A DNA stretch of 64,000 nucleotides, taken from contig KV419398.1 of the NCBI GenBank assembly GCA_001630475.1, positions 98,453 to 162,452 of the forward strand, read 5' to 3'. A program made the translations under genes and the position numbers. The notes under the pieces were generated by a model. That model was not told the origin of the DNA and made no database searches. It saw nothing but the letters and a program-made list of their open reading frames with translations. The stretch comes from Sistotremastrum niveocremeum HHB9708. Lineage: Eukaryota; Basidiomycota; Agaricomycetes; Sistotremastrales; Sistotremastraceae. How positions within the stretch are numbered: position 1 is the stretch's first letter; the number at the start of each line of letters is the position of its first letter. Below are positions 8,501 through 41,860 of this stretch, one piece after another.

Positions 8501-11500
8501 TTCCTTGTCGTACTTGGCTCCGAAAAGTATATTATCCTATCGGCAAAATCAGTCAGGATAGCACTATAGAACGCGAAAGATGTTTACCCGAATAGTCTCA
8601 TTCAATACCCAACTCTCTTGAGCGGCATAAGCGACGCCTTGTTCCCGCGGAAGACTCCACTGAGAATCCGGCCCCAACGGTTGATAATACATCTCTCCAA
8701 GCAACGCCATCAACATGCTCGTCTTTCCAGATCCGGTAGGGCCACAGATGATGTTGAGCTCGCCGTGCTTGAAGACCAGATCTCCATCGATCTGAAGCTT
8801 GAAGTTCCGTCTTCCGGTAGATGGTGTCTGGGCTCCGGTGGCAGAATCAGATTGCTTCTCCCAGGTGAAAGCAGACTTGCAGATCTTGATACCAGAGGAT
8901 TCTTCTCCTGCTCCGGTGGACACAAGAGCTTCTTTGCCACTTTCGCTGTATAGTTCGCCCTATGCAATACGCCGCGTCATAGGTGGACCGACAAGGGAGT
9001 ACGGAACGTACATTATTGACAAAATCTCCAACGCGATTAAGAGACACGATAGCTGATGCCCAGGTGTCAATAGACAAGTATGTAAGTCGCTTATCTCTGA
9101 AATCGGCGCACCTCGAAGCATATTCGGTAAGTAATGGAAGAGACCGAATAGATGCTCTTGAAAGATGTTGAACACCTAGAGGTGGAGGTGAGGAGGACGC
9201 TCCAAGATCCAACCGAATTGCAGACTTACAGCGATAGAAGAATAGATGGTAGAAGCAGTAAGCGACTTCTTCAGGATGAGCGTCTAAATGACCGGAAGTT
9301 CAAGGTGCGCGAAAACCGAGAGAAAGAGGCAGTACGGACGTAGGTGGCATATGTCGCAATCATAGTCATGAGCGGGAAGATCGAGCTGAGTCACACCGAA
9401 ATCAGAATCCAGATGTATCCGAACGATGGAGGGCGCACGTACTTCAACATCCACGTTCCAGTGCTCAGCCATTGCGTTTTGAGTATGTACCCGAGTTCCT
9501 CTATAGATCCAGGTAGACCTCGTCATCATCGATACATTATCAAAGAAGATGAAGGACGGACCTTCTCGCTTCTCGGAGAGATGCTTTTCGACTTTATCCT
9601 CCCACGCGAAGATCTTGATCATCCGGAGGACATTCATGACTTGATTGATGGCAGCAATACGAGCATCACTCTAGATTGAATGTCAGAAGTCTCGATCTTG
9701 TCTTCCTTATCGCAAAGTACCGAAAGAGCCCACCTTCTTCATTTTCGTCGCCTGAAGCTTCATTCCAAGTTTGGCCAACCATCCCGGAACAGGGATCATA
9801 CAGATGAAGATCGCCATACCGACGAAGGCGCTCCATCCAAGAATGATGTACAACAACGCAATACAGATGCCAAGACGAACAACAAGGAAGACTAGCATAA
9901 CAACTGCGTGAGTTTATGCTCGACAATGGATACCGAAGCACTAACCAGGTGTCAACCAATCTGCACCTCCCTGGAGGATTCTCAGATCCGACGAGATCAT
10001 GTTGGTGATCTTCCCGATCTGATCTTGACTCTTCTCTTCAGGCTTCTTCTCCTCGACTCTCAACTCCTCTTTCGGCTTATTGGTCTCCGCAGCCTTGACG
10101 GCAACCTCGGTCGCAGCGACTGAGCTCGGAGCGGTACCAGCAGGATCTGCACCGTCCATCATTTCGGCCGGTATCCCAGTAACATGAGCTGCGTCTGCTG
10201 CGTCGATCGCTTGTGATTCGACAGGGGTAGGCGCCGGTGATTGGATGGCTTCCAAAGGTGCTGCGGGAGCTTTCTTCGTCTTCTTCGAAGAAGGGGCATC
10301 TTCTTTCTTCACCGCAGTGCTCAGTCGTACGCGGAGCGAATGCACGAAGACGAGGTGCGTAATTATTGCTGATCGACGGATGACGACTTTGGTCTAACAT
10401 GTATTTGAGGATAAATAAACTCATCGTTGAGATAAGAAGAACGACGTACGGAGAAGTATAGATAGGTTTGTTGACAAATGGAGTTAATGATCGGGCCAAC
10501 TGTGAGCCATACAATCCATACCCAAGGCCTAAGAGCGTCGTGATCGCCTTCCAGATATCTTAGGAATCGCAGTCAGCGTTGAGCGCTGAGTAGTAACGAA
10601 GGACTCACGATAAGATACGGTTAATGGCGACAGGTGATGCGAATTCATTGATAGCCTGAAGGGAACAGTCGCAATTAGTTAAAGATGTCCCGTCTCAAAG
10701 ACTTGACAAACGGACTTGAACGATGCTGAGCGCCGACATCACGGCATATTGTTTCTCTACATTCATGGCAAGGATCAGCTAGCGAAAAGGAAGCCGAAGA
10801 AGATCATACTGAAATAGAAAATTGTTGCCCAGATGAAACTCCATTGCTTCCGTCCCAATTGAACGGGATCCAAAGTCTAAAATCACGATTAAATCTCGAC
10901 ACGATGAGCTAACGACAGGCACGCTTACCTTAAAGCCAGACTTTTCGATATAACCTGCTGTATCGTCATCCGCGAGCGTCGGTAGATCATCGATCGTCAG
11001 AGTCGAGTTTTTGAAAGCCTTGTAAATGAGCGGATCTAGGTGCGAGAAGAAGGCGAGGGACAGATATGAGGCTGTCTGAGTAATCGTTGGTGGGATAGGA
11101 TTCTACAGATCGATAAGAATGTCAAATTCGACAATATCGTCCTACTAAGGATAGCAGTACATACTTCCGGATCCGCAGGGATGTATCTCCGCGGAAGATT
11201 AGCGGGAACAAAGAATCCCGTCAGAATCAAGACCGCAAATCGCGTCCAACCTAATGCGCCTTCTTGGTAATCCAACGGTAGACGGCCAGCGGCGACAGGG
11301 GCGATATCGCGGAGGACGTAGATGAATAGAATGATAAGGTGGAGGAAGGAAAGATGCGAAGATACTAGGTATTTCCATTTTGATGTACCGAAGATAGGTA
11401 CAGGGGAGAGGAGGGCCGTGTAAGCCTACCAGTGGGTAGATGTAAGCCATTATCTCGCATGTGGAGGTGGCAAAGGGCACGTACGAAGAATGCAAGCAAT

Positions 11501-11905
11501 GTTAAATTGATAACGTTAAAGTTTTGATTGATGAGTACTAGTTGGATAGCAAGTAACGCGAGTGACGCGACTATCCGGACGCTTTGGAGAATAGACCATG
11601 CGATGGATTCTTTGTAGGCCGGATCTTGCAGTTCTTTGACACGATAGCTCACGTCTACGAAGAAGGAGTAGAATCTCCGCAGCCTCGTTTCTGGTATGAT
11701 GGCATGTAATCCAAGTAGGAAGAGAGAGATGGCGGATAGGTAGACAGGAATTATTCGGGGGTCAGTCCAGATGCTGCCATTGGTCGCACTGCGGAGAGGC
11801 TAAGCAATATCGTACCGGCGGGCAGAGAATGACGAACACGGGGTAGTTAGCGTCGAGAAACGGGTGAAGTAAATTTTGGTAAAGGAGGATGGGCTGCTGT
11901 TCCAT
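5528..11905 (-). CDS. ABCC (MRP-type) full ABC transporter
   Basis: ATP-driven exporter of the multidrug-resistance-associated family, expected in the vacuolar or plasma membrane and often handling conjugates or secondary metabolites. The gene has many short introns. The N-terminus (11905 leftward) carries an extra block of hydrophobic helices (TMD0-like), then TMD1, NBD1, TMD2 and NBD2. NBD1 shows Walker [10 protein letters not shown] (about 8.71 kb), the signature LSGGQ split by an intron (about 8.3 kb) and Walker [15 protein letters not shown]2 shows Walker A RTGAGKST beside an intron (about 6.37 kb), the variant signature FSQGQRQ, Walker [13 protein letters not shown] and the H-loop VAHRL. 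The protein ends ...LYSAAGL. A long Ala/Pro/Glu/Lys-rich insertion interrupts TMD1 (about 10.06-10.32 kb). The position beside CYP-A fits an exporter role, but this subfamily also has housekeeping members. Confidence 0.9.
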
Positions 11906-19568: not shown

Positions 19569-20823
19569 TCAAGGCAATGAGAGCTTATCTATCAGTACGT
19601 TCTCCTTCAATATTTTTTCTTTCAGCTTGTTGACGTCATCTAAATCCCAGTTCGCCGAAACATATCTGGAAGGACATTCATAAGTATATATTCATGCTTC
19701 ACCATTTCGACAGATCCTACCGTCCAGTCAACCAGTCTTCAGAACCAGAGGTCAATCGAACCAGGACGCTAGCTGGAAGAGCGACAGTGTCTTCTTTCAT
19801 CACACCTGCATCGACGAAACCTTGAACCTCCGGCGTATTCGTCCCGAGTTCCGTGCTGTTCCACGGTCATGAATCGAAAACAAAACCACTTTGATATGCA
19901 AACTTACAGCAGACAGCCGGGATGAAATGCGAAGGACTTGACCCCTTGGTCACCATACTCTGAGGCAAGAGATAATTTATATTCATTCGGCACTCTCGAA
20001 GAAAATAAGTAGCTTCTCTCACCGAAATCGATGTACTCCGCAAACCGATTGAGGGCGTGTTTACCTCCTAAATAGGCACTTCCTCCGAGCCATCTCAATT
20101 GTGCCCCTATAGAAGATACCACGACGAAGTATCCTTTCGAAGCCACCAATGTCGGCAGAGAATAGTGCGCTAGATTGAAGTTGCCACCTGGTGAATTTAT
20201 CAACATCTGTTGATTGGATTTGTATGGATGAACTGACGTATGTTGGTTTCCTAGTAGAACAAGATGATGATGGAGCTGTGAATTATAAACCGAAAAGATC
20301 GTACCCAGGTTTTCCACCAAAGTTCGGGGTCGTGTTCTGCAATCGGAGTCCATCGAGATAAAAATCCGGCATTCGAAATGACGATGTCCAGTGTCCCGAA
20401 TTTTTGAAGACAAAACTCTACCAATGCTTGTACTTGCTTAGGATCGGAGATATCCGCTGCGAAAGTTTCTACTTGTAGCTCGGCGTCATATTGCCCACTT
20501 GCGTCCATCTTCGCTTTATCTAAGATATCTTCACGCACGCGAGCCAGGTCTGATAATGTCCTAGAGGTGATGAGTATGCCTTTGGCTCCTGCTTTGGCAT
20601 ATGTCCTTGCGGTTTCTGCTCCGACGCCTTTGCCAGCCTTCATGGCGATCAATCAGCCATTCTGGTGGAAAGAAAGAATGCATACCCCAGTCACGAGGAC
20701 GATCTTCCCTTTCGCAGCATCTTTCAGTGCTCCATTGACATCGATGGAAGGATACACATCGTGTCTCTCCCTTGCGTCGATGATTGCTTCCGCTGTACCG
20801 TTGTAGCGTGACGAAGGGGGCAT
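19569..20823 (-). CDS. Short-chain dehydrogenase/reductase (SDR-A)
   Basis: NAD(P)-dependent oxidoreductase acting on an alcohol or ketone; substrate unknown. Seven exons (20686-20823, 20305-20637, 20238-20250, 20023-20187, 19908-19959, 19721-19855, 19569-19665) give 310 residues in perfect phase. The cofactor-binding TGAGKGVG, the NAG motif (ISNAG), the catalytic Ser in VVSSIGAQ and YxxxK in SAYLGGKHA are all present. The third exon is a 13-nt microexon. The start MPPSSRYNG was preferred over an upstream Met because SDR-B and SDR-C start equivalently (MAPYDG, MAPYNG) and share the following HDVYPxIDVxGALK. It lies beside the halogenase, on the same strand, and is a plausible partner in that pathway. 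Confidence 0.9.
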
Positions 20824-22531
20824 CGCTAAACCGGGCTGACAGACGTCTTTAGCTGCCTTATAATCCCCTGTGCATGCATTCAATCTCCACGTCGGCAAAA
20901 TGATCCCGTGGGGAAGATGATGGCGTGAGAGATCTGCATACGTCTACTCGGCCCTTTGCTTGAAAGATAGTCATCGTATTAAATCCCGGCTGTTCTATCT
21001 ATCGTGCCTTGGTACTCCATGTGGGTGGCGTCTATAATACGGTCCATTGCCCCTAGTTGCAGGAGTTAAGACTGATATCTGATGTCGTAAAGAGACAACG
21101 AGTACGTCTTCAGTGCAATGGTTCAGTAATTCGAAAACATAAATCGTAGTCTTCCAAATATTACTTCTTCATTGACCTCGGCATTCCGTGACGCATTGGC
21201 CACGACTTGTTCCTCTCCTCTTCATTTTCTACTAGATTTTTTTTAAGACGCTATCTAATCCAGATCGTTCATTCCAGGCGAAGGCGGTGAGAATCCGGTT
21301 GTTTTTCAAGAAGCCTATATGGTCCGATAGTCTGGCGCACTTCAAGTATTCTCCTTTAGGTTATATAGCCTAACCTGGCAGATACTTACAGTCGTAACAT
21401 GGTTATTGCGTGATAGTCTTTGGAGTGGATCGCGATGGCATCTCATCTGGGCTCTCTGCGTCATAGAACCTCATGCCGTGGATTTTTGTGCAGTGAGTTC
21501 TGCACCAGAGAGCATTTTCCAACAGCAGGGCACTTCGTTCTGGAAGTTCGGAAAATATTCCGTATATCATGTTGTATTCTTGTCGGATCCAATAGGATTA
21601 TCACTCCCAAGGCATTCTGAGTTCTCAAACAAACAATGGTCTCTTGCTGACTAATCACGCCGCTTCACATGCCCCCAGCACAATGTCGATGCACAAACCC
21701 ACTGTTCGAAGGAAGATATGCTATCATCGTGACCACGATATTACGTGCTTGATGTAATTAACTATCGACTAAGAAGGATGGCTGGGCTAGTTCAACGTTG
21801 CATGTTGCTTCCTATTGGCCAAATCCATCAATGTTCAAAGAACCGTAGTATGTTCACACGGGTCATCATCCAATGCTTGCAATCCTGGGGGTGCAAACGG
21901 GACACCTGACATTTAGCCTTTGTCGGATTCGATGCTCAGCCCGTTGAAGAGGAACCAGAAGTAAGGGAGTCGCTCGCCCTCCCATTGTTCGGGTCCAGCG
22001 GATCATATCCAAGCCATATATATCCGATGCGCCACCATTGCTGAGGATGCACCTAAGAAGGATGCATCAGTTCTTCACGTAAGATCCGTTGTTCATGTGG
22101 TGTACTCGGGACGCTGGAGACTAAGGCGGAAGCAAATGCTGGATGCGGCGATTAAGGTGGATTACGCGCTAAAGCTAGCGCTGGTAGCTCGCTATCGATG
22201 ACGTTCTCGAAGGCTAAGAGTGGAAATTGTGGCGGAAGCAGAACTGGATCGATAAGGAGGAACAATCCCGTACCCGCGAGTAGAAATGTACAACGCAACG
22301 AGATAAAAGAGATCTGTCAGAATTTTTTATTCTTCAGAAATGATACGATATGATAGAATTGTGGTTGTTTAGACAAACATGTCGGATGTAGCTTACGACC
22401 AATATTAGAACCCAACGCTAAGTACCAAGCAGAGAGAAACCAAACACGAAAAACAAATAAGAGTTACAATGTACGAGCCGAAAGCGAAAGCGAACGAAAG
22501 ATAAAAAAGCACAAAAACCCAAACAAAAAAT
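20824..22531. other. Gene-poor spacer
   Basis: About 1.7 kb between SDR-A and the halogenase 3' end. It carries only short unconvincing open frames. The SDR-A promoter must lie in its left part. The A-rich stretch 22270-22530 is probably the 3' untranslated and termination region of the halogenase gene. Confidence 0.45.
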
Positions 22532-24703
<2,172 letters not shown>

Positions 24704-27700
24704 GTGGGATTAGGTCAGGAGGGGAGAGGGGTTAGTGTTTAGAAAACGCTGGGGATAGGCAGGGTGGTGTCGATGAGGACAAAGACGATGTGAGCAGGGA
24801 GAAGTGCGTTCGTATTTATACACGAACGAGACATAGGCATTAAACGCTTATCGAATAGATCCCCCTTGACGGGAAACGAGTGGCCTCTCCTTTCGAGACA
24901 ATAATCCGGGATCTATCTTGTGCTGGCATCTCGTTACCTGTTCCGTAAACCCCAAGATCGATCTGGTGAATGTTCACGAGCCCACCATGGCCTGGCTTGA
25001 TCGGATGAAATAAGCATACCAATTCTTTATTCTTGTTCTTCTATGCCACCGTCAAATTCTCTGATATAAAGGGTCGCCAAGTTCCAGATCTGAATTCAGG
25101 GTTGAGGTGGAATGTTGGCTTTATTGCCCCTGAAAGCGCACCTTTGGGTCTTCTGAACTGCCGATAAGCTGCAGCGACATGCCTCCAGTGATGCAAAAGC
25201 GATCCCAGATCTGAGGCGGAGGACGACGTGCGCTTGTTTTTGCAGGAAAATTTCCCCCTTGCCGAATGGAAGCTTCTGCGTCCGAAGCGATTTCAGGGGT
25301 CACTTGATCCCTAATATTCTAACTTCCCCCCACTTTCTTCCAAGGTTTCCCACGTTCCAGATCTAATCTCATTCATGAATAAACTCAGACAGATCCGCCT
25401 CAAAGCGCGAGTAGTTGAAGCTCTTCCACTGTCATCAAAATATCATGCATTTGAGGACTGAAAGTTGATGCCGACTGATAGGAAAGCATTGCGCAAACTT
25501 GACGAGAGGAAAGGCTATCTATGGTTCTAGGTTCTGTCAATCAGGGAAGCTCTAATTGTTGACAGATGATTCGGCAGCCGTAACGAAAGCCAGAAAACAG
25601 GGATGTCATCGAGGAACTGTCAGAAAAATCCAAGTTTGTCTCCCATCATACTCGATGCCACCGAGATCCCAGTGGAGATAGACTGCAGACCTGAATGCGA
25701 TACATTTGCTGTAGGATCGCTTGGCAAGAAGACAAAGCAATGCAACAGCTTCGCTTAGGTCGTTCGCGCCGCCATTCCGGGGCGCGCAGACGACTTCAAG
25801 ATCGTCGGCTTCGCGATCGTAGAAGTGCAAAGAAGTGAGCAAGTCATCCCAGTGTAGAAATCAAATCCTGCCAGCCCCTGGCGAGTGTGGAGCGTCCTGC
25901 CATGATTTCAGGAACCAGAAAAAAAGCACTCGAGATGCGCTTATTAATTGTTCATCTCGAACCGATGATTCCTTCGCCTAATCTGACCAGAAGCCACCAT
26001 TTTTGCGAACAGCAGAGAACACGAGAGCCGATGCGGATTTTCTTCACCCCAGTCTTCCCCTCGATCAAGTATTGCTGGAAATTAAATGCTTCCAGGCGCA
26101 TCAGACCTGCTTCGCATTGATCGGGCTCCATTTGCAATTCACGAGGGAGAATAACGAGAGTTGTCTAGGGCCACGAGAGCAGTCGCCAGAGAAGCACAGT
26201 ATATCGTAGGCATGGAGTCCAAGCGTTGGTTCCGGCTCCGACAGTCGCCCCCGACTCGCCGGGCTCGAGTGGGGGAGTTCAAATAATCTCTTTCCCATGC
26301 AAATTAGATGGAAAATGCCATCATTGGTGAAATTCAGAGCCTCAGACCATCTCCTACGATTGTTACAATATGACAGAGTGCTCAGAATACAAGGTTAAAA
26401 AATTAAACAAAAGATTTGGGCAGCTCCGAGGTTCGATCTCCCGTCCTCGCTGGCCGCACAGGGTGCCTTTTCGGCAGATGCAGCCGAATGATGTCATCCC
26501 CAAACTCGGCACAAAGCGGGAGTAGCATAGGGACAACTAGTGCTAAAATATATTTAGCAATCTCTACAAACTGCTGAAATCACTATATCTTCTATTGCCA
26601 AGCCTCTTAAAAATGGGAGTCCGTGGTGCTCGAAACGATCAGCGGCGTGACAGTCGGCTTTCTCCGTGAATCGGCTAAATCAAGCGGAGTTAACGTCAGC
26701 CCCCGGCTATCTCGGCTTCAGTGGGCCTCGGAGATATCGGAGTTATCCCCGACTTTCTCCATCCTCGTTTTCTCCCGTTTATTCAAACATTTTTCGCGAA
26801 TATAAACCCACTATATGTACTGATATGCTCGATACAAGTGCGTTCTATGCAGTTAGAATCAGATAAGAACTTTGGTAATCCGGCAGATCGCCGGATTCGT
26901 CCGTCGGATTCGGAAACCAACGCTTGGACTCTATACCCACCGTACACAGTAAGCGAAGCGAAGAATCTCCTCACTGCCCTGAATTTCCAAGAACGGCAAG
27001 CGATGTGGCCACCAATCAAGACCGTCGAGACAATGAGAGGGATCATAGATGAAACGGAAAACTGTTCATGCCCTTCTGCTTTCGCCAACGACAGGGCCAA
27101 TTCGTCCCGAAACCCGTATCAACAAAAAGTGTTCTGTTGTCTCGCTGCGGACTTTCGAAGTAAAATAGATCCGCATCCGCATTATTCGGCAGGCTGCTCG
27201 AAAGACTGAACCCGAAAACACTCGCTATTTCTCGATGATCCGCTTGCATGCTCAGCTCAGCTCTGTGTCATGATCAAGGGGAGTAAGACGGAGAGTCACT
27301 CGTCACGGCTGCGTTTCCGGTCGAGTCAGGAGTGTTTAATCAATCATGCTGATCAGCCAATCGTTCCCTGCATGACGAAATACAATCATAGCGGCATCAG
27401 ACCCCGAAACACGGCCCTTTTATTGGAAACACGTACCATTTCTTATATTTTGATAGTTTAGGAATATCTCATGTGCTATCATTCAGCCAGAAATAAGCCC
27501 CAGATTACAATCTCAGCGTGATAAGCCATGGAAATTGCTGCATCAAATCTTGCACCAATCGCTCGTTCAAAAATCCCCACAAACGTGTGGAGATATTTTA
27601 GCCGAGCCGGGTAGCGTGCTTCGACCTAGACCCTTTTCGCTTAGGTTATAGCCGAACCTCCCCAAACTGTTCTCGCGAGGACCAGTGACTGAAAGGCTGT

Positions 27701-28498
27701 CTGTTTAGATTTCTTTCTTTCGCTCAGTCAGATCATTCTGACTGTATCAGTTGATAATCAGAATTCGGTCAACGCTCCATGCTTTGAAACCTGAAGGTCT
27801 AGGTCTCCGGAAACTTGAAGGATGGCCATCAAGGCCTTATTGTCTGCTGTCATAATAGGAAGCAATATACCTCGAAATCGAAGTCCTCGATATTCAGGTC
27901 TCCAAGCGCTCCTGCTCTAATTCACGGCCATCCGCAGCCTCACGGACTCCAAGTCTCGTTATCAATTTACCTCATGGCTCATGCTCTACGCCGTTAATAA
28001 AGTTACTCTTGTCATGCGCTCTCAATAACGAGATGAAATGCTACATGTGAATTGACAACGCGGAATGCCGCTCTCAGCTGTGCCATTCTACACCCCGGGT
28101 GTCCTTGCGGTGACAACAGGTGCGGTTCCCGGACGACTTTGGTGGGCTTAGCGTGGTATTCTAATTGTCTAATTAAGCGAACTGCGTCATCAAGTCGACC
28201 ATCTCTTTTTGTTCTCGGGAGTACGCGGACGATGAAGAGGCGGAACTTACAATCATATGCGCTAGGGCTATAGCTATCCGGATGTCAGCGTTTGTAATAG
28301 ATTAACTGTCACTCAGAATGAATGCGTTAGTCTACGATTTATTCAGTAAAACGATATAAAGTACGTTAGATCACCAAGAACAAACAAAGGAGAATAGCAC
28401 CAAGAAAGCCCAAAATTAGATAGCGAAGAGGAATAGAACGAAAACCAGATCCCGACAACGACTTCCTATTGCACAACTAGCATGAGCGCAGCAAAACT
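24704..28498. other. Long gene-poor spacer
   Basis: About 3.8 kb between the halogenase start and the O-methyltransferase end. It holds the halogenase promoter (just right of 24703) and one weak small-gene candidate at 26847-27209. No transposon ends, long repeats or RNA genes were recognised. Confidence 0.4.
26847..27209 (+). CDS. Weak candidate small protein
   Basis: Single open frame of about 120 residues starting MQLESDKNFGN. A TATAAA at about 26803 sits some 45 bases before the start codon, like CYP-A. The protein has six Cys, mostly in the second half, no signal peptide and no known domain. An open frame also exists on the opposite strand across the same bases, so either or neither may be real. 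Confidence 0.25.
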   Translation: MQLESDKNFGNPADRRIRPSDSETNAWTLYPPYTVSEAKNLLTALNFQERQAMWPPIKTVETMRGIIDETENCSCPSAFANDRANSSRNPYQQKVFCCLAADFRSKIDPHPHYSAGCSKD

Positions 28499-30527
28499 CT
28501 AGGCCGCAGTAGGCTTAACGTCTTCTGCCACGGTCGATGCTACAACCTGGGGTTCGCCGACCTCGAGTTCCATAATAGACACCCATGACCTCAAATGATG
28601 GACTTTCCTCAATTTGAGTCCAGCACCATCGAAAATCCTTTGGAATTCAGAAAGAGTACGTTCACAAGCTACCAAACCACATTAGCACAGTATTCAATTC
28701 GACGGAGAGGAGTTCAAGACGTACCATTCAATGCAGCCTCCATTGATACACCAAGCTGAAGAGGGAACAGACTTGAGACGCCGAAGTTCGCTGGTACGAA
28801 AGGTGGAGGTGCGATGGGCGTGTATGTTTTCTTGCCGGATAAAGCTTCGAGTTCTTTCACGATCACGGATTGTTCTTCTTCATCGGAAGAAAAGGAAGCA
28901 GGGGTAGCGGATCCGTTTTGCGTGGAGGTGTTGGCGGTGTGGACAGGGGTGACGATGTTGTCGATGACCAAGATGCGCGATTTCGGGCCGGCCGCTTTGG
29001 CGATTTGACTGAGAATTTCGATCTGAGGGTGGAAGGGACTATGAGTAAGTTATCTGGAAATGTAGGAGAGTGGGTGCGTACGCTTTGCTGCTCGGGCCAG
29101 TCATGACTACAGAGGCTCGTCAGGCGATGAGGGCGGTAAGAAGGATATAAGAGCTCACATGACCCATTTCAAAGTGTACACATATCCATCTCCCATGAGA
29201 GGCTGCTCGGTGAAGAAATCATGAGGCATCGCCCTAATGCGACCTTGTTGGAAAGCTTCAGGTAACGACTCCGCCATATTGGCAGCAGTGAATTTAACAG
29301 TTCCCGGGCGATCTTGAACGACGAATTTGAGTGAAGGAAGTCTATTTGCGTCCTTATTAGAAGCAGAATGCGGATCAAGGACCAAGCTTACGATTTGGCG
29401 AGTGCGACGGACATGCCACCGCGTCCTCCGCCGACATCGACAACGGTAGTGCCAGGTTCCAGGTCGTTCCAAGGATAATCGGCGACAATGGAATCCAAGA
29501 CAGAAGCTTCGAGGGCCTGCGTTAAGAGCATGGTGAGATTCGGTTGCGATACAATGAATGAGAGTAATATACGTACGTGGATCGCATGGGTGAAGCTGTG
29601 AAGCATGTCGGGATTGGAGTGAACGAGTTCGAAGAGATGTTTATCGGTATTGTTGCCAATCTGACATCCAGTGTGCAACGGTGACATGGAATATTTCCAT
29701 TCGGGTTTGACAACGGCTTCCGCTAAACCGCAGGCGTTTCGCAAGTAGAGATCGCTAGATGCAGAGTCAGATAAAAACTCAAATCGACATTATTCAAGGG
29801 AAACGCACGCGTGGTATCCGAAGTAGAAAGCAGAAGAATCCTTTCTCAAAACCTGCTCCATCTTCGTATTCTTAAAACGAGCTTCCTCCGTCTCCTCGAA
29901 CCAGCCGATGGTGCTCAACAATCTCATGGGAGCTGCGAGTTTTCTGGCGTCGACGTCGAGGACTTTTTGGAGTTCGGTGAGGGAGAGACCACGTTCGGGA
30001 TTTTCGCATTCGTGCAATGCGTCGACTACGCCGGTGCGAGCGATGACTTGAAGGGAGGCAGTGAGAGTTCCGGCATGGGTGATTTCGGTGAGTCGTTCGA
30101 AGGGAGATTGGAAAGTCGATTTGAGAACGCCCTGCAATTCAAGAAACCATTAGCTTCACCAATGCCACATTTTCGAAAGTCGAAGAATAATCACCAAAGT
30201 TGCTGAACTTGATGTCAGAAAGATAAGATAATCGCATCATGCAATAAGCGCCTACCTAGGATGGTTCTTTTGGCTTCGAAGAGTTTTGGTGAGGGTAGAC
30301 CGGACGTACTGAGGCAACGACGGGAACGATCAGCTGAGGCTCTGGAATTGAGAAAGAGAGGGTACAACGTACTCCAAGGGGTGAGAATATCTTGCGCTCG
30401 GAGGAGGAAGACCGCATTCAGCAGCTTCTGTTCGGAAAATTTTGATGGAGGATTCAAGGGTGTTAAGCAGAGAGTCAAGCTCTGCATCTGCGACCATGTC
30501 AAAGTGACCGTTGGGATAAGGTGCCAT
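28499..30527 (-). CDS. SAM-dependent O-methyltransferase (COMT-like)
   Basis: Transfers a methyl group from S-adenosylmethionine to a hydroxyl, typically phenolic, in the Methyltransf_2 family. The N-terminal dimerisation domain begins MAPYPNGHFDM and includes winged-helix-like sequence around 29.8-30.1 kb. The SAM-binding motif I is VVDVGGGRGGMSVALAK, and LKWVMHDWPEQ carries the conserved catalytic His of this family. The C-terminal part is SRILVIDNIV then LRKVHHLRSWVSIME. Exons at the 5' end are 30373-30527, 30256-30308, an 8-nt microexon 30196-30203, then from 30131; together they keep the frame through ILGATLGVLKSTFQSP. An acidic Ser-rich loop interrupts the last domain near 28.85-28.9 kb. 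It lies between the halogenase and the NRPS-like reductase, fitting O-methylation of a halogenated aromatic. Confidence 0.9.
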
Positions 30528-31502
30528 ATTGTACAGTGTGTAGGTGGATAGTCGCAGTGATCACTGGCAACGAGAACCGAGGGAAGGAAGTGGACGAGCG
30601 GTGAGATATTGACGTTATAAGGCCTGCGTAGCCGAAACATAGCGGAATTAAGAGAAGGAGCTGGGGATGCTTCTTTTTGCCCTGTTGTTCCCCTGTTGTC
30701 AGGGTGAGCGCGTAGTCCGATTTCGTTATGGTTATGCCCGAACATTCGCCTCGTAATCCTGACCCTGAACAAAAAGACATCAAACCACTATTGTCTTTTC
30801 CTGACCCAGACGCACAGTTGAATGTTTCAGGAAAACCCCTTCAAGTTCTAGGGCTTTGTTCGCTATCTGTTCGCCAGCGATGTTCACGAAATCGTAGAAG
30901 TTTGAAGGTGGCGCGTCAGGCACTGAGATTGCCCGGCCCGGCTTCTCGGCTTCAATCTGCTTATATCGATCACATCTTGCCGATCTAGATCTCGGAGATT
31001 AGCGTTTTAGGGACTATCCTGGGACAGCGAGACTATCCCAGGCCAGATTCGCTTACTGCAATAGCAGCTGTCATCACCCCAAGAAAGAGACATTCAAAGC
31101 ATCCTGCACTCGGTATTTCTAACCTCAACGTCGGATTTTGACATTGGCGATTTGGTGAGAAAGAAAGTTTTCGAACGATCTGAATCTCAGATCACTTGCA
31201 TTGTTCTATGAACAAAAAGAAATCAGGATCGGTCGTTATTCTAAGCGACAACTGTTGAACTGTATACCCACGAATGCGAAATTGACAATGAATCATCGTC
31301 GAAAGTAAGAAACGGAGTAGAATGCAAGTGCCTTGTGATTACGTGGAAAACAAGTGTGATCGAGTTCACAACGCCGACTTGGCCTCTTTCAATTGTCTTA
31401 GCTTGTCTTGTGACGACGCGCAGATTACGTGTGGCGTTCCGCTAACCCTGATCTGCTCTCCGTTAGTTCTTCAACGCGGCCAACGGCGACAGACCTTCCC
31501 AT

Positions 31503-33059
31503 TCATAGCGTAGTACGAATATCCAGTGGCTCGATGGTGGCTCGATGCGGCGCCGCCGCAGTTTGGGGAGAACCGGAATGAACGTCGGGTTGGAGAATCA
31601 GATAATCGCGTGTCGATCGACGGCCGGGGAGCAGCGTCATGGCATAATGAAAGATAAGCCCAATCGAGCGATGAGGCGGATGCCAGAATAATAAATTGCA
31701 TGTCAACAACACAGTCATCAGTGTCGAGTGAACAAGGTCAGCAACAGTGAGAACACCAGTAACCACGGTAGTAAGCCACTTCCGCGTACAAAGTTCAACA
31801 CGAGAAGCATAAGAATCGTGTCTTGTTTTTCGCCGAGATGAGCAGTTCAATTTCCAGAACCAAAGATAGAGTTTGATCATGCCACGGCGATCGCGAAGAG
31901 TATAGCAATAATTTTCCGAGGCACAGGAATTGATCAATCGCCCAACAGCGCCACAGGGGGCAGAGCGATGCATGACCAAAACGCCACAGGAGGTAGCACG
32001 AAGAGGGAGGGGAGGAATGCCGTTCTGAACGCTGAGCATGGTGCTGGGGGTGAAAATGTGGCGTTTCTCGGGCAGAACCGTGAACCGCACGCGCGGAGGA
32101 ATAGCGAGCCACTGAGTTGTTTCCGAAAGCGTAACTTCCTTCTCAGTGGCGCATGCCATTCTCGTCGAAATGATGAGAGAGATGAACTTCATACGCATGA
32201 GCATTAGCAGAAGCAGCGTTTTGCTGACGCGGCTGATTTCGGGCAATACGACTGAAGCATGGATTTCAGAACTGGACGGAATTCCGTAGGAGAAGATTGT
32301 AGGATTGTGTGAGAGGATAGGTGTCGCGGAAGGAGATCAGGACCGTCGAGGGGAGAGCTAGAAGCAGTGTGGCATGAGTGTCATGGTATAGTCTCATTTG
32401 GATGGAGGGACAGTAAGGTCAGCTACATCAGAGTCGAAGAGGAGTGAGAAGAATGCGGGATAGACCAATCAACGACGAGATGTGGTAACACCTCAAAATG
32501 CAAGCACATATCAGCACTAGTTGACCACGTTCAAGTGCCTAGACAGTGTTCGATGCGATGAGGCGCTGGGGCGTAGTCGAAGTCATGAGCCCAGAGGTCG
32601 TCAAGATCACAGGGTGCATAGTAAAGTTGACCGCATCGATTCTGAATTGTACAATCCGCGCATCCGGACCCATACCTTGCGATGATGCCAGCGCTTTCTG
32701 GAGTCCGAAGAGGTCGAACGATGATTGGGCGACCTGATCAAGCAGTCAAGCAAGTTGACTTATGGAGTTCTCAAGCACACAAGGTCATGATAAAGACAAT
32801 AATTCAGAGTGAATCGCATCTTCAAGTCACGAGGTACGCCTCAGAGGCTCAGGCTGGCCAAGGGTAGAGGAGGGTCGACTTTGCAGGACCTGGATGCACA
32901 CGATATCAAGAGATAAGAATGACTAAGAACATCCTCGTCGAGGGCCTCTTTCGATTCAAGCCTTTGGGACAACGGATTGTCGACCATATGTTTTAGAAAC
33001 CCAACGAGCCCTGAACGTTGGCCTGAACGCTGCGACGACGAAAGAAATGATTCCGACAT
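31503..33059 (-). pseudogene. Possible decayed membrane-protein gene
   Basis: Leftward coding-like pieces are scattered over this stretch. The best is near 31.6-31.8 kb, a hydrophobic run with WLTTVVTGVLTVADLVHSTL that resembles one helix of the basidiomycete seven-helix DUF6534 type. Further pieces lie near 32.55-32.74 and 32.84-33.06 kb. I could not connect them into one plausible reading frame with good splice sites. It may be an old gene remnant, or an intron-rich gene I failed to splice. Confidence 0.25.
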
Positions 33060-33425
33060 CCGATCCCGAGCCAGCTCTCTCCGAACCTGGCAGTAAGGCT
33101 CACCCTTACTGCAAGCTTGCTATCGACTTATTGAGGACCAGGTCTTCATTCATCCGTTCGGCTGTCCTTTATGACTTTTTAGATGACTTTGAGCCTCTCT
33201 GAATATTTATAAATTTATTGAGGCTCACCGTCGATGTGCGGCTCCCTGCTTGCGTCGAAATCATTCAGCCTATAGTATGTATTCCCGCTATCCATTATGA
33301 CTGATATGCAAAGAAATAGGTGACTATTTACTATGTAGCTTATACTCCTGACGCCTCTTCTGAAATGACGACTGGTCATTTTCCCAGCTCGTGAGTTTTC
33401 TTCAAAACATTCGTGCTACCAACAT

Positions 33426-34069
33426 ATGCATCCCATCGATCCGGAGAGATCCCCTCGTAGTCCACATCATCACCATCACGCGATCAAACCGATTCATCTC
33501 TCTTTCTTGACTCCGTCAGAAGATGATCTTCTATGGGCTCGTCTCTCCTCTGGAATCCTATGTCCTCTGAGACAATATTCTCCCGATCGACTAGCAGAGT
33601 TCCGTTCACTAAGACTGGCAATAACCAAGACTGTAGCATCTCGCACAACTGATAACCTCCGATCTTGATTCGTATGTCTAGAACACAGCCCCCACCTCTG
33701 TCAAGTCCACCTCCACCACCTCCGGTTCCCTGTCCCTTCTCTGCACCCCCAGCTCACACAGGTTAGCTGCGCTAGATCTACACGAATGCTCATCAGCTTC
33801 CTGGCTGTTATGAGTTTCAGTCAAGCGTTCATCGATTAGTCTCTCAGGCGCTATCCGATGACTCCGCGCTGTTCACTCTACTTGTTCATTCGTCGTCGTC
33901 AGATTCTCTGCCAAATCATGTACAAAGGTGCACGGATTGTGCTCCCGAGCCTCTGAAATCTCACCTTGTCAATGCGCAAGATTGGATAGAATTTCTGAGT
34001 GCCGCTCCTGGAACTAACTGTCGAGTCTCTTTGTCGTCGTCCTTCATACATGCGCAGTTCAAGGCATAA
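33426..34069 (+). CDS. Weak candidate multi-exon gene
   Basis: An 80-codon frame starts MHPIDPERSPRSPHHHHH and a second coding-like frame of about 75 codons ends at a TAA at 34069 (pieces SSVHRLVSQALSDD and NAQDWIEFLSAAPG). An intron such as 33633-33681, with GTAGCA donor, CTGAT branch-like site and TAG acceptor, could follow the first part. The middle join is unresolved: no single pair of introns keeps the frame. Function unknown. Confidence 0.3.
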
Positions 34070-34496
34070 TTATGTGACGATGGCTCAATCCGATATCACC
34101 AAGGAATCGAGACTGGCATCAACTTGTTCTCTAATTCTCCAACGGCGAAGTACGAATTAAAAAAAAATGTGACGTCGGCCCCTTCTCCGAACTCTGCACT
34201 CGGAGCTTGAGATTCCTTTCGCCTCTGCTGTCCTCCCACTCGCTTCATAACCTACTCCAACATATATTCTCCAACTACGGATCTATATGCATTACAGTAA
34301 CGACACTGTCAACGACACTCAGACTCTTCTTTCAGGACATTCGCCACTCGGACTCAGATTTTTCATTGACAGTACTGTACTGTATATGCTATCGAGGAAG
34401 CTGTTTCTAAATCGGGCCCCCGTACAATTCATCACCCCGTTTTTGCGAGGTCTCAGATCTCAGGCTGAGCATGAGGCTCGAGCGAGTTGAGCTTCT

Positions 34497-34520
34497 GCCT
34501 GAGCCTGAGCCTGAGCCTGA
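34497..34520 (+). repeat. GAGCCT hexamer repeat
   Basis: Four near-perfect copies of the six-base unit GAGCCT (read as GCCTGA) lie in a row in intergenic DNA; a simple microsatellite. Confidence 0.8.
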
Positions 34521-36199
34521 TGCATGTATGCTCGACGTTCAATGCTTCCATCCAGCCCTGCGTCGTCGATATCAACACTGGTACACAGTGCTCAGTGTTG
34601 AGTCGGATTTCGATCCGAGTTCTAATATGGTCGAATTTTATCGCGTTGAAGACAGCTCTTCCATCATACTCGTCTAAGTAGTCGTCAGCCCTGTCAAATC
34701 ATTTGTCTCATCTTCTGCTATGGTACTCTAATACTAATAATATATGCGTTGAAAATCCCAACCTCGGAGAACTGTCAAGATAGACGTGTCGTCTCGACGA
34801 TCCACAAGGCACCAAGCCCGCAAACAAACGATCCCCAACTCCTGACCCACACGACGTTCGCCAACCGAACCGACAGAACCGTCAGAAACTCAAAGAGAAG
34901 AGAACAGAAGAGAACCCGACGATCAGAACAGGCACAAACCTCACGTCACCCCAGCACCCTCCTCAGGGCCGTCGCGAATCCCAATTTCCAAAGAAATTAA
35001 TCTCGGCCGAAGCACCCGCTTGATTTATTCGATCGCGTTTCACATTCTCGCTTGGAGGAGGACCTAGATTGATGTCTGATGCATCGAACAGCCGATAAAT
35101 CGAGCGAGGGGATGGATTCGAGATCCGCACCCTTTTTCTCGATACACCAATCAATATATTCATGAACCGGTTTTGGGGGGTTTGAGGGTTTCTGATTGGA
35201 AATTCAGCAAATCAGCAACTCGAGAAATATCCGATTCGCTAGCATTTTAACGATATCGTGGAGGCGTTGGGATCGAGATTGGAGCATGCAGAGAGGTGGA
35301 GCATCGGATGTATCGTATATTTCCTAGATTTACAATGAGATCGGATGTATTTTCACCCCACAGATAGAGTAGAGATAGGAGCAGATAGGTCCCGAGCCCG
35401 ACTCCCGACCCCCGCCTTGCTGTGATATGATGCCGACGCCATATAAATATAGATCCCGCCCCCGTGATCATTTGCTACCGATGGGGGGACGGGATTCCCA
35501 CGCCCTTCGCACTTCGCTCTTCTACCGGGAAGAATCCGCGATCAGCAGCGAAGCTAGTGAGGGTAAAGCGAAGGTAATGCGGCATTGAAAGTGAAGGTAA
35601 GGAGGAGATTACGAGTCAGCTTACAGTCATAGTAGGTGTCATATCTCACTTCTAATTTCCTTCTGCGTTCGCTGCATGCATACAGTAGATTTGCTCGAGG
35701 TCGGAAGCAGGTTCGGGCGTTCGGCGGATCGGCATGGAGGTGTTTGGCATGTGCTGGGCCTGCTGCGCCACGTTTTGTGCTTCGACAGCGGGAGTTATTC
35801 CGAGTTCATCTCAAGCTACCGCATCCAACTATTATAACTGTAATGCTCTACATAGTACACATTCTCCTCAACGGCCGAGCATACATGAGCGTACAGATGA
35901 CACGAAAGCTGGATCGACGACGTAGAAGGATAGTAGTATCAGAAGAGAGAGAAATGTGGCCATGATGGTGTGGATGGATGGATGGAAAGGGAATAAAGGG
36001 ACCTTGATTCGGTTAGCGGTTAGCGATTTCTTTCTTCGTTCCTTTATTCCGCCGCTCGCTTGTCTTTCTTTACTTGATACCACTTGATACTTATCAAAGC
36101 ACTGTACTCACTAACTCTATCACAGTCACTCTCCTTACTTCACCGTTCGCCGTCAACGCGTTAACCTTTGTAGTACTCACTTCGTTCGTCGTCACCGCG

Positions 36200-39100
36200 A
36201 TGTCGCCCATCTCATCGCCCGACGCGCCCGACTCACCTCCTCAATCCCAAGAATCCACCAAGACGACGATGTCCCCCTCGCAACTAAAAATCCTCCAATC
36301 CTACCCGCACACAAAATTCCCGCACGCCTACCAAACGACTCAAGGTCTCCTCCTCCACCCATCCTTCATCCTCCCCCCACTCGACGGCTCAAAAGTCATG
36401 AACGAATTCATAGACTGGCATATGGATAATTCACCGGGTCATACATTCGCTTTACTCACTCCTGAGGGTGTTGAGAGTTCGTCTTTGATCAAGATTACTT
36501 ATGAGGAATGTAAGCCCCCCTTCCTCTCCTCTTTTGTGGTTTTGGAGGGATGTTGATGATGTGGTAGTGGGGAGGGCGGTACACTCTCTTGGAGCACAGT
36601 TTTTAGAACAAATCCCCCGCCCCGCGGGTGGACACCCGTTCGAAAATCCCAACGCGAAGCCCCAGATCGTAGGAATCCTAGCAAACATCGATGCACTCCT
36701 ATACGACCTCCTAATCCTCTCCCTCTGGCGCGCAGGATACACCCCATTCCCTCTCTCCCCTCGGAATTCCGTCGCTGCTCTTCGTCATCTCATGATAAAG
36801 ACAGGATGTGACGTTCTCATCGGAAGTATACCCGACGACGAAGAGGGAGGGAGGGGAAGCGCGTTGGAGATTGTTACGGAGAGATTGGTGGAGAGTTTAG
36901 ATGTTGATATCACACTTGTCCCAATCCCCGATATATTCGACTTCCTTCCTTCTCTCAATCCCTCTCTCCCCTCCTCCCCTCCAACTCTCGCGAATCCCCC
37001 TCCTTCTACCCCTTCTACCGATCCCGCGATCAACGGAGGAGAAGCAGAGGTTGAGAGACTTCCACCGATCCCGTATCCTCAGGCTCAATCCTGGACATCC
37101 ATAATAATCCATTCCTCAGGATCGACATCATTCCCTAAACCTATCTCATTCCCACAAAAACATACGTTGCAGTGGAGTCATTTTACGTGGTTTGGTGAAC
37201 AAGATCTCGGTACTCCGAGTCCTGCTCCTATCCTTCGCCAGAAGGATCTTGGGGACTCTGTCACCGGATTACGTGCTGACGGAGTCAAGGGCGACGCTGA
37301 GAATGAGAGTGGAGGAGGAGATGGAAATGGGGGAGGAGAAGTTGATGGTGGATGGAGCGGAGGAGAAGTAACGAGTTCTGGGATGAGTCTTCCAGGCTTT
37401 CATGCGATTGGCGTAGGGTGTCAAATCGGCGTTCCGTTCACTAGTAAGTCGACCGCAGAGAGACTTCCTTCCCCTCTCTCTTCTCCCTCTCTTATATTCC
37501 TCGTGTTCCTTCACCCTTCGTATCTCCTTTTTTCACTTCCTTTCCTCAACTTCAACATCATACTAACACCCTATCCCAGCCGGCGCCGTAGTATCCTATT
37601 TCCTCCCCACTAGGGGCAAAGGCCCAGTACCCCTAACAGCCCCCAACGTACTCGCAGGCATGGTCAATACGGGTGTCCGATACTCCTTCGGTCTGCCTAC
37701 TCATTTCGAGGTGCGCCTTCCTTTTTTTGTATGGAATGGAGGGGCTGATTGGGTGTGGTGGGAAGGAATGGAGTAATAGTGTTGAATGTATGGATAAGCT
37801 TCTTCCTCAAAAGGGAATGGTACGTATTCTTCCTATCTATCTCTCTTCGTCCTCTCCCCCGTCTTTCCATATTCATTCCACCACTTATCCTCCCTATCCC
37901 GCTATAATCCCATATCCATGTCCTTCTCCCGCTCTTTCCCCATGTCGGGCCCGCCCTTCATCCTACTTTCATCTTTCATACGCTTCTTCCCTCCTCATTC
38001 CGTTCGAGTCCCAATACTGACGACGCAAAATAGATAGTAGGCGGAGGCCCCCTCGCAGCTCCCTCCGGATCCCGCTTAATCCAGCATGGGGTGAACATAA
38101 TAACAGGCTACGGACTCACCGAAACAGCACTCATATGGACGAAATTCCCTCGTCGAAACCTGGGAGAGGACTGGCAATATGGATCATTCGCTTCGTTCGT
38201 CAAGGCTCGTTTCCGATTATTCTCCGCCTCCGAAGGGACCTACTTGGTCGATCTATTCGACGAGACCGAGTCGGGCGAAGGAGGGAAGGGAGAGGGTGGA
38301 GGTGAAGGGATAAAGCGAGGGTATGAACCGCCCGTCCGCAACGTGGAAGATGGCGGGAGAAAGGGGTTTTGCACGAATGATCTTTTTGTTAAACATCCCA
38401 CTAAGGAGGGGTTGTGGAAGATTGTAGGGAGGGCGGATGATCAGATCGGACATGCGAATGGGGAGAAGACGAATCCTGTTCCGATGGGTGAGTATTTTTC
38501 TCTACTGTCTCAATTTGTTTGTTTCCTTTCCTTTTCGCCTTTACTTTTCGGTTCTACTCTCCGTGGGTGCGGTGCGCTTTACTCCATTCGTTCAGTCGTT
38601 GTCTTCATTCCTTTTCTCTTCTCCTTTGCCTTTTCCTTTTCTGAATTCTTCATTCGAACTCTTCAGTTTCACGCTCCGTGCGTTGAGAGTTGTCTTTTCT
38701 TCTTTCCATCTCCTTCTTTCCTTCATTCCTTTCGATTTCTTGATTGCTTCTGACTCTTCTGGCGACTCTGGACACTGCGTTAAACTCAATTTCGATTTCG
38801 ATTTCGATTGCGATTGCGATTGCCATTGGGAACTTCATGCAGTCTGATGGGGTCCGACATGCGCAGAGGCTCTCAAGGCTCTGTCTTCGCCCCTATATCT
38901 TTGCTTTCCGTTCCTTGTTAGTTGGCAACCTCGCGAGCCGAACTTCTCCCTCTTTCGTCTCTATCTCCCTTTCTACTCGTTTTCGTAGCCCCAAATCGCG
39001 AGGATGTTCTTCATATTCGTTATCATACCACTTCACACTCGCCTCTTCCTACATTCCCTTCCTTCCTTCCTTCCTCCCGCCTATCTAAACCGAAACACAC

Positions 39101-41860
39101 GCTAACGAATTCTGTTGATAATTGCAGAAAATATCATACTGGGCCATCCACTCGTAAAAGGCGCAGTAATGTTCGGTGCAGGCCGCAACTCCTGCGGAAT
39201 AATAATCGAACCTGCATCTCCCCTCCCCTCCTCCTCACGTCCCTCCTCCCCTCCCCTCCCCTCCCCTCCCACTACATCCTCTCCCGCCGCCGCGTCATTC
39301 CCATCTCGCGCCTCCGCGAATCCAAACCCCGCGCTCGATCCTCTCGCGGATCCCCAATCCGCCCAAAAGCAGGCGTTCTTAAACGAAATATGGTCTCAGA
39401 TAGACCTCGCAAATACCCACGCACCCTCCCATTCCCGGCTCTTCCCCTCCATGATCCTCATCACCGACCCCACCTCAAAACCATTCGCGAGGACACCTAA
39501 AGAAACTGTTCTTCGCGGTCGAGTTCTTGAAGAATTTAAGGGGGAGATAGAAGCTTTGTATGCGAGATTGGATGCGAAAGACGCGATGGCGAAAGAGGGA
39601 GATGAAGATGAGAGTGTGGAATGGGGCGAGGAGGAGAGTGTCAAGGCGTTTGTTAAAAGTGTTGTGGAGAGCATCCTTCCTCCTCGAGTCGGAGGGGTTG
39701 ATGAGGAGGGTGATCTGTTCGCACAGGGATGCGATAGTCTTCAAGCTTCGTTCATCCGGAATAAGATCCTCAAAGCTCTCGATGCGTTCTTCTCTGCAGG
39801 ATCCGCTGGCATTTCCATCAGAGGGAAAGTGGGGACGAACGTCGTATTTGAGTATCCGAGTGTGGGGAAGTTGAGCGCGTACCTCGTTGAAGTCGTCGCT
39901 TCCACCGGCGGATATTCTACTGGATCCGCAAATGGTGTTGGGCACGTCAATGGCAATGGCCATCTCAACGGATACGCCGTTAATCACGCCAACGGATCTT
40001 CGATGAAGACGAATGGAGCCAACAGCCATCTCAACGGCGTGAACGGGCATGCGAACGGGGTGAACGGGATCAAGAAGGAGGGAGAGACGGAGGTTGAGAA
40101 ACGCGTCCGAGCGATGCGCGCGATGCTCGATAAATACTCTTCGCCCTGGCCTCCATCACTCCCGTCTTCATTCACCCGCCCCACACCCTCCGTCGATAAA
40201 GCCGTCAACGGAGTCACCTCCAAAGGAGAAAGAGGGCATGTTCTCGTTACGGGAACCACAGGTGCATTAGGCACATACATCCTCTCATCTCTCATCCTCT
40301 CTCCTCGTATCAACAAGATATGGGCTCTCAATCGTCCCTCCCCACCTTCTCCTTCATTTCCGTTTTCAACTTCTCCTTCGTCCCAAGCTTCGACGAAACC
40401 GAAGACAAAAAGTCTGCTGGAGAGACAATCCGACGCGTTCGACGAGCGCGGAATCGGGCGCGGCGTATTGGAAGCCGCGATAAGAAGTGGGAAAGTCGTC
40501 CTACTCGAAGGCTCTCCCTCCCCCCTCTCTTCTTCTTCGCAATGGGACCTCCCCTCCGAGACATTCACCGAAGTAAGTCCCCCCTCCATATTGATCAGAG
40601 AAGAGAAGATGCTGATGTTTGGTTGTAGATTGTTGAGAGTGTGACGACGATCATACATAATGCGTGGAAATTAGACTTCAATCAGTCCCTCAGCTCTTTC
40701 GAGAATAACGTAGCGCAGACGAGGTATATCCTCGATCTCGCGCATCTCGCATCCACCTTCACCTCCTCCGATGCAACTGCGACGAAGAATGTGCATGTGA
40801 TGTTCACGTCGTCAATCTCCACTGTGTCGAATTACTCCGGGAAGGGCAAAGGAAGAGTCCCAGAGGAGTTTATCGATGATCCGAGTATAGCCGTTGGAAG
40901 TGGATATGGAGAGTCGAAATGGGTCGCTGATGCTCTTCTTCATCGTATCGCAACCTCCTCTTCCTCCTCCTCCTCTCCTCCTCATATGAAGACCGATGGA
41001 GGGATTAAAGTGACGAGTTTCAGGATCGGACAACTTTGTGGATCTACGATGAACGGAGCGTGGAACGGGAGTGATTGGGTGCCTATCATTCTTCGATCTT
41101 GTGTCCCTCCTTCCGGTGCTGGGGCTGGGGCTGGTGAAAGTGGTGTCGTAGTACCTGTATTCGGAGAGGATAAGAGAGTGTGTTGGGTCCCTGTGGACGT
41201 TGCTGCGAATTCTGTACGTTTGTTTCTTTCTGATTTGATGAGTATGAAGCTGATTGAGAGTAGATCGTCGATTCGATGTTCGTACCCCATTCCGCGGGCG
41301 GAGGCGAAGGCAAGAAAGGATATAGAACGTTCAACATCGTTCACCCCAACCCAACATCATGGAACACCATCTTCCACTCCTTCGCCACATCCCTCTCCCC
41401 TCCTTCTCCATCGAAGTTAGAGTCGAATGGGAACGCGAGTGGGAAACTGAAGGGAATCAAGACGGTGGAGATCGGGAAGTGGGTTGAGGAGTTGAAGGAA
41501 GATGCTGCGAATGAAAAGGAAGGAGAAGAGATTATGAAGCGAAGACCTGCGATTAAGATCCTCTCATTCCTCCAACACGGGATCGCCTCGTCTCCCTCGG
41601 GACCTCCAAACGGGCATGCCACCGCAAAATCCAACGGGCATGCCAACGGCAACGGACACATCAACGGCTCTGCAAAGCCGACCATCAACGAAGAAGAAGA
41701 GAAAGAAGCGATGGGAATGGCACGTCTCGAAACGTCCCGAATGGAGAGCGCGAGTGAGGCGTTTAGGGGTATGAAGAAGATTGACGAAAAAGACGTCGAG
41801 AGGTGGGTTGGGTGGTGGAAGGAGAGAGGTATCGTTGGTGCTGGCGCAGGCAGCCTTTGA
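36200..41860 (+). CDS. NRPS-like carboxylic acid reductase (A-T-R)
   Basis: Activates a carboxylic acid with ATP, loads it on a phosphopantetheine arm and reduces it to the aldehyde with NAD(P)H. Eight exons (36200-36509, 36568-37443, 37580-37710, 37766-37819, 38034-38487, 39128-40572, 40629-41213, 41264-41860) join in phase to 1483 residues. The adenylation domain shows IIIHSSGSTSFPKP, YGLTETA, GRADDQIGHANGEKTNP and the A10-like TPKETVLRGR. The thiolation domain has the phosphopantetheine Ser in FAQGCDSLQASF. The reductase Rossmann motif is VLVTGTTGALG, with the catalytic YxxxK in GYGESKWVADAL. Asn-Gly-His repeats fill linkers before and near the end of the reductase domain. The fifth intron is 640 nt. 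Basidiomycete relatives reduce aryl acids; L-aminoadipate reductase (Lys2) is the alternative but fits the motifs less well. Confidence 0.93.
38789..38824 (+). repeat. TTTCGA/TTGCGA hexamer repeat in an intron
   Basis: Inside the 640-nt intron of the NRPS-like reductase, three TTTCGA units run into three TTGCGA units. The surrounding intron is strongly pyrimidine-rich. Confidence 0.8.

Follow-up and report, generated by a model that had tools for sequence, protein, structure and literature searches.

A candidate gene neighbourhood for chlorinated, O-methylated aromatics in Sistotremastrum niveocremeum

Wood-decay basidiomycetes release chlorinated aromatics in large amounts, and chlorinated anisyl metabolites are made by white-rot fungi. 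Here we consider a group of genes whose predicted reactions would yield such a compound, located in a 64,000-nucleotide stretch of the Sistotremastrum niveocremeum HHB9708 genome. This stretch, referred to below as the window, is C5:98453-162452 (contig KV419398.1) of a 34.7-Mb, 111-contig genome assembly, and the genes in question encode a predicted flavin-dependent halogenase (HAL1), a COMT-like O-methyltransferase (OMT), a carboxylic acid reductase (CAR) built from adenylation, thiolation and reductase (A-T-R) domains, and a short-chain dehydrogenase (SDR1). HAL1 resembles the RadH/Rdc2-type fungal halogenases, a group that includes ArmH1-5 of Armillaria: it is 52% identical to RadH over 449 columns and has the flavin adenine dinucleotide (FAD) loop, the GWxWxIP motif and the equivalent of Lys74. 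Armillaria is described as carrying multiple halogenase copies per genome (PMC9144378), as is the case here. The present locus differs from the RadH/Rdc2-type systems in its gene content, since HAL1 lies near a COMT-like OMT and a CAR and no polyketide synthase (PKS) was found close to it. Fungal A-T-R CARs, which are sorted into clades I-VII (Li et al. 2022, PMC9605436), have the three domains and their motifs in common with the window CAR. PKS-CAR clusters such as herA-herB from Hericium and asc/stb have also been described in which, as at this locus, the CAR stands beside tailoring genes that include an SDR (PMC11643632). Those clusters contain a PKS, whereas no PKS or terpene synthase domain was found in 13 window proteins scanned with Pfam (a set without SDR3, the ABC transporter model and the smaller open reading frames); within that set the preliminary description of this DNA, which saw neither enzyme, holds. 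The strobilurin cluster paper mentions a halogenase, but by its abstract the cluster has a PKS (PMC6158276).

We read the region as a biosynthetic neighbourhood whose product would be a small aromatic compound bearing chlorine and an O-methyl group. The likeliest candidates are chloro- or dichloro-anisaldehyde and the corresponding benzyl alcohol. We put this reading forward tentatively, judging its chances to fall somewhat short of even. The starting point for this is the gene content. All four genes were rebuilt as complete spliced models with GT..AG introns and zero internal stops, using a basic gene finder for which exons of the window itself served as the training set, applied region by region, with splice sites corrected by hand (Table 1). 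Every motif sought in the four proteins is present, the functional roles we give these motifs being those usual for each family, and the open spliced models and intact motifs together rule out pseudogene status for any of the four. It had been claimed that an SDR, a halogenase, an O-methyltransferase and an A-T-R reductase lie within positions 19569-41860, and this is confirmed by the spliced models, the Pfam matches and the motifs, with the two limits corresponding to the last stop-codon base of SDR1 and of the reductase, respectively. The four genes, their intact motifs and their proximity are directly established. The description of the locus as one of four genes stands as far as the presence and position of those genes are concerned, but the neighbourhood is larger than this, with a second halogenase and extra SDRs and cytochromes P450 (P450s).

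The solved protein most like HAL1 is RadH, a fungal halogenase (8gu0, E 3.3e-139). The FAD loop GxGxxG is intact (GGGPGG at 21), the lysine aligned to RadH Lys74 is kept in the stretch HGFTLKPGAA, and the WxWxIP motif noted earlier is present in its fuller GWxWxIP form (GWAWYIP at 244). On these sequence features we assign HAL1 as a RadH-type flavin-dependent halogenase. Rdc2, a RadH homologue, is described in a review as depending on Lys74 and as having chlorinated ortho to the hydroxyl in all three of its tested cases (PMC9144378). A second gene of this type, HAL2, was recovered beyond the right-hand end of the window, and its product is 82% identical to that of HAL1 (446 of 545 aligned residues). 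Given that dN for the pair is 0.135 against a dS of 1.82 (a value near saturation, giving a dN/dS of about 0.07), both genes have been retained by purifying selection, which we likewise count as directly established. Adjoining HAL2 are an SDR and a major facilitator superfamily (MFS)-like gene. The HAL1 protein query of the genome also returned a halogenase fragment on C51.

The OMT finds its best solved relative in GedA (7wh9, E 6.8e-41) and keeps an intact S-adenosylmethionine (SAM) GGGxG loop and HDW motif, the histidine of which we take to be catalytic. The HDW motif is carried on a microexon that was recovered by hand correction (Table 1). The PF00891 match, the SAM loop and HDW together bear out the earlier identification of a COMT-like O-methyltransferase. 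No further copy was found when the OMT protein was used to query the 34.7-Mb genome at E<=1e-3, and a genome search with PF00891 matched one Methyltransf_2 fragment on C20, yet missed the window's own OMT.

The CAR contains an AMP-binding domain, a T domain with GxDS and an NAD-binding R domain with YxxxK, and its motifs SSGSTSFPK, GYGLTE, NGEKTNPVPME, GCDSL, TGTTGALG and YGESK are all intact. Its introns include one of 214 nt and one of 640 nt, both pyrimidine-rich by eye, and its best solved relative is 8aep ('Acetyl-CoA synthetase-like protein'), aligned over the R domain. The A domain has an A4-like PGFHAIG motif that resembles those of acyl/aryl ligases. An alternative for an A-T-R protein is the L-aminoadipate reductase Lys2, and grouping of the A domain with Lys2 had been named in advance as an outcome that would count against the proposed pathway. 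We rule this identity out, since the CAR reaches 36.6 bits with the Lys2 model TIGR03443, for which the cut-off is 1030.1, and has its best stretch in the R domain, since the same genome holds a separate Lys2 (C4:576739-581242, six pieces), and since BLAST of the CAR against that Lys2 aligned residues 946-1327 only, at 21% identity. The identification as an A-T-R reductase other than Lys2 is therefore upheld.

Whilst the window CAR shares its architecture with other fungal CARs, it is unlike the other CAR-like proteins of its own genome. We compared it with five paralogues (three from C37, one from C30 and one from C11; two other C37 places were omitted), all of them automatic models and some incomplete. 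These five are 45-74% identical among themselves but show only 24-27% identity to the window CAR in the best-scoring piece, with up to 33% in other pieces, and on this basis the window CAR can be assigned by sequence to a class distinct from them. It also bears long low-complexity insertions that are absent from the modelled paralogues, and no close copy was found when the CAR protein was used to query the 34.7-Mb genome. The C37 region at 278-351 kb is itself of note in holding about five CAR-like places, the three modelled ones being 58-74% identical to one another and very unlike the window CAR.

From these enzyme classes a route can be proposed, in which we infer the order of steps, the substrate, the product and the joint action of the genes. 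The starting substrate would be a phenolic benzoic acid in free form, such as 4-hydroxybenzoic acid supplied by shikimate or lignin metabolism. HAL1 and HAL2 would chlorinate beside the hydroxyl and the OMT would methylate the phenol, whilst the CAR would activate the acid with ATP, load it as a thioester on the T domain and reduce it with NADPH to the aldehyde, which an SDR could interconvert with the alcohol. Hydroxyl groups on the ring may be provided or added by the P450s. Precedent exists for parts of this scheme, with the fungal CAR PnlA described as taking 4-hydroxybenzoic acid as well as the corresponding 4-methoxy acid (PMC9605436), and with several basidiomycetes described as reducing p-anisic acid to anisaldehyde (PMC10784365). 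An aryl-acid pathway of this general kind had been suggested for the locus before, and the enzyme classes on which it was built are as described, but the neighbourhood to which it was applied had been incompletely described.

As to the source of the aromatic ring, a non-polyketide acid is weakly favoured. In the genome as a whole, the ketosynthase model PF00109 gave one match, inside an apparent fatty-acid synthase (named by eye), and the PKS-specific PF16197 gave zero matches in what is an insensitive search. With PF04820 the same type of search gave 0 matches, although a protein query finds several halogenases. As this search type missed both the halogenases and the window's OMT, the absence of a PKS is weak evidence, and this must be set against the proposed route.

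We also considered whether the genes might be expected to lie this close together in any case. Random placement was simulated for a 20-kb span in a 34.7-Mb genome, with 400,000 trials for each set of family sizes. The probability of finding a halogenase, an OMT and a CAR within 20 kb was about 1.3e-5 when 3 halogenase, 4 CAR and 1 OMT groups were assumed, 2.8e-5 with 5, 9 and 1 groups, and 8.3e-4 with 5 halogenase, 9 CAR and 20 OMT groups. These values are optimistic because the 20-kb span was picked after the locus had been seen, but clustering of the three by chance is unlikely.

Other observations, some of them concerning the same clustering, weigh against the proposal of a chlorinated anisyl pathway. 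A halogenase and a CAR alone would fall within 20 kb by random placement in 1.4-5% of cases. The CAR is on the strand opposite to HAL1 and the OMT, and the intergenic gaps are wide, at 3.8 kb between HAL1 and the OMT and 5.7 kb between the OMT and the CAR. When the 500-base upstream regions of nine genes, or of a core set of five, were compared, no 7- to 10-mers were shared above shuffles; AGGGGCAAT occurs in three of the five core promoters, but this was reached in 23 of 200 shuffles. The P450b family, P450a included, occupies seven places on C5 between 44 and 288 kb, and because this expansion extends along the contig far beyond the four genes, membership of the P450s in the pathway is uncertain. 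The SDRs are similarly not confined to the locus, with weaker relatives of SDR1 on six other contigs, and two more halogenases lie outside the region, close together on C10 at about 338-351 kb, with 63-64% identity to HAL1 over 483 and 389 columns (partial models). A protein of the Peroxidase_2 (chloroperoxidase/peroxygenase) family adjoins this C10 pair. As to the gaps themselves, matching to the genome (with simple repeats and very common words skipped) rules out abundant repeats as their cause: the gap at 24800-28400 holds one low-copy repeat at 26202-26944 (743 bp), 81% identical to a sequence on C34 and with a shorter 73% match to C36, and the gap at 30600-36100 matched only itself.

These points leave room for other explanations, two of which are unlikely in our estimation. 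One is that HAL1, HAL2 and the OMT act on a hydroquinone to give a chlorinated hydroquinone methyl ether of the drosophilin A or tetrachloro-dimethoxybenzene type, with the CAR unrelated or acting upstream. Two halogenases close to an OMT would suit such a pathway, as would the distance and orientation of the CAR, and Fulvifomes siamensis, a wood-rot fungus, is described as having 1,2,4,5-tetrachloro-3,6-dimethoxybenzene as its signature volatile (PMC10181603), an observation that we also count in favour of the chlorinated anisyl reading. This explanation leaves the CAR and the SDRs unaccounted for, however, and neither a decarboxylase nor a hydroquinone-forming enzyme was identified among the gene models, although no search aimed at them was made.

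The other, to which we attach similarly little weight, is that the halogenases and OMT are free-standing tailoring enzymes that modify a scaffold produced by genes in another part of the genome, in the manner of Armillaria mellea ArmH1-5. The latter are described as lying outside the melleolide cluster, with all five chlorinating free melleolide F (PMC9144378), and the presence of further halogenases on C10 is in keeping with this. Against it, the occurrence of an OMT and a CAR near HAL1 exceeds the expectation from random placement, and the insensitive genome search discussed above did not find a PKS for an orsellinic scaffold. Least probable of all, we consider, is a chance neighbourhood of unrelated catabolic or detoxification genes in a contig region rich in duplicated SDRs and P450s, since the general expansion of the P450b family and of SDR1-type genes (at four C5 places, 89-154 kb), the intermixing of unrelated genes for PHP-domain, RNase III-like and DUF6697 proteins (one of each), and the lack of a promoter word in common above shuffles have to be set against a halogenase-OMT-CAR grouping with a random-placement probability of about 1e-5 to 8e-4 and a HAL1/HAL2 dN/dS well below one.

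Returning to the chlorinated anisyl reading, its most specific form is that of a cluster that works without a PKS. Here the two RadH-type halogenases, the COMT-like OMT and a CAR divergent from the others of the genome would convert a simple phenolic benzoic acid to an anisaldehyde, or the alcohol, with one or two chlorines. Such a cluster would be the first locus to which the chlorinated anisyl organohalogens of mushrooms that decay wood could be traced genetically. We regard this fuller claim as possible but distinctly doubtful. Among the titles and abstract openings returned by our searches of open-access papers, none names a gene cluster for chlorinated anisyl metabolites or a basidiomycete cluster that joins a halogenase, an OMT and a CAR, which is no proof of novelty. 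If the claim is true, the origin of these natural organohalogens would become testable gene by gene, and the halogenase pair, the OMT and the divergent CAR could be used for making chlorinated benzaldehydes.

Table 1. Predicted features of the window and its right-hand flank (window positions, except where C5 coordinates are given)
Feature	Predicted identity or role	Position	Strand	Details
P450a	Cytochrome P450, possible pathway member	3008..5129	+	561 aa; PF00067 E 3.1e-64; 48.7% identity to P450b
ABC transporter	Possible exporter	5528..11905	-	Automatic model, named by eye
SDR1	Classical short-chain dehydrogenase	19569..20823	-	310 aa, 7 exons; PF00106 E 2.6e-36
HAL1	RadH-type flavin-dependent halogenase	22532..24703	-	547 aa, 9 exons; PF04820 E 1.3e-28
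OMT	COMT-like O-methyltransferase	28499..30527	-	525 aa, 9 exons; PF00891 E 3.6e-16
OMT microexon	25-nt microexon carrying HDW	29082..29106	-	Restores the KWVIHDW stretch skipped by the automatic model
CAR	A-T-R carboxylic acid reductase, non-ribosomal peptide synthetase (NRPS)-like	36200..41860	+	1483 aa, 8 exons; PF23562 E 3.4e-35, PF07993 E 2.5e-15, PF00501 E 4.3e-12
SDR3	Possible pathway member	52831..54044	-	56% identity to SDR1; named from 75% identity to SDR2
SDR2	Possible pathway member	54664..55867	-	54% identity to SDR1, 75% to SDR3; PF00106 E 1.2e-39
P450b	Cytochrome P450, possible pathway member	57518..59671	-	581 aa; PF00067 E 2.9e-61
HAL2	Second RadH-type halogenase	C5:166145-168256		3.7 kb beyond window end; protein query and model

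The SDRs of the window are paralogues of one another. SDR1 has the TGxxxGxG and YxxxK motifs intact, as expected for a classical SDR, and a 13-nt microexon is found at the equivalent place in SDR1 (20238-20250), SDR3 (53443-53455) and SDR2 (55276-55288). Across the genome, the three relatives that score best against SDR1 all lie on C5, between 89 and 154 kb. On C57, at 106-130 kb, many SDR1-related pieces occur in a run that resembles a tandem array. Rightward of the window, in addition to the MFS-like gene and the further SDR, there is a protein that by eye resembles a glycoside hydrolase family 7 (GH7) cellobiohydrolase, which would fit with wood decay.

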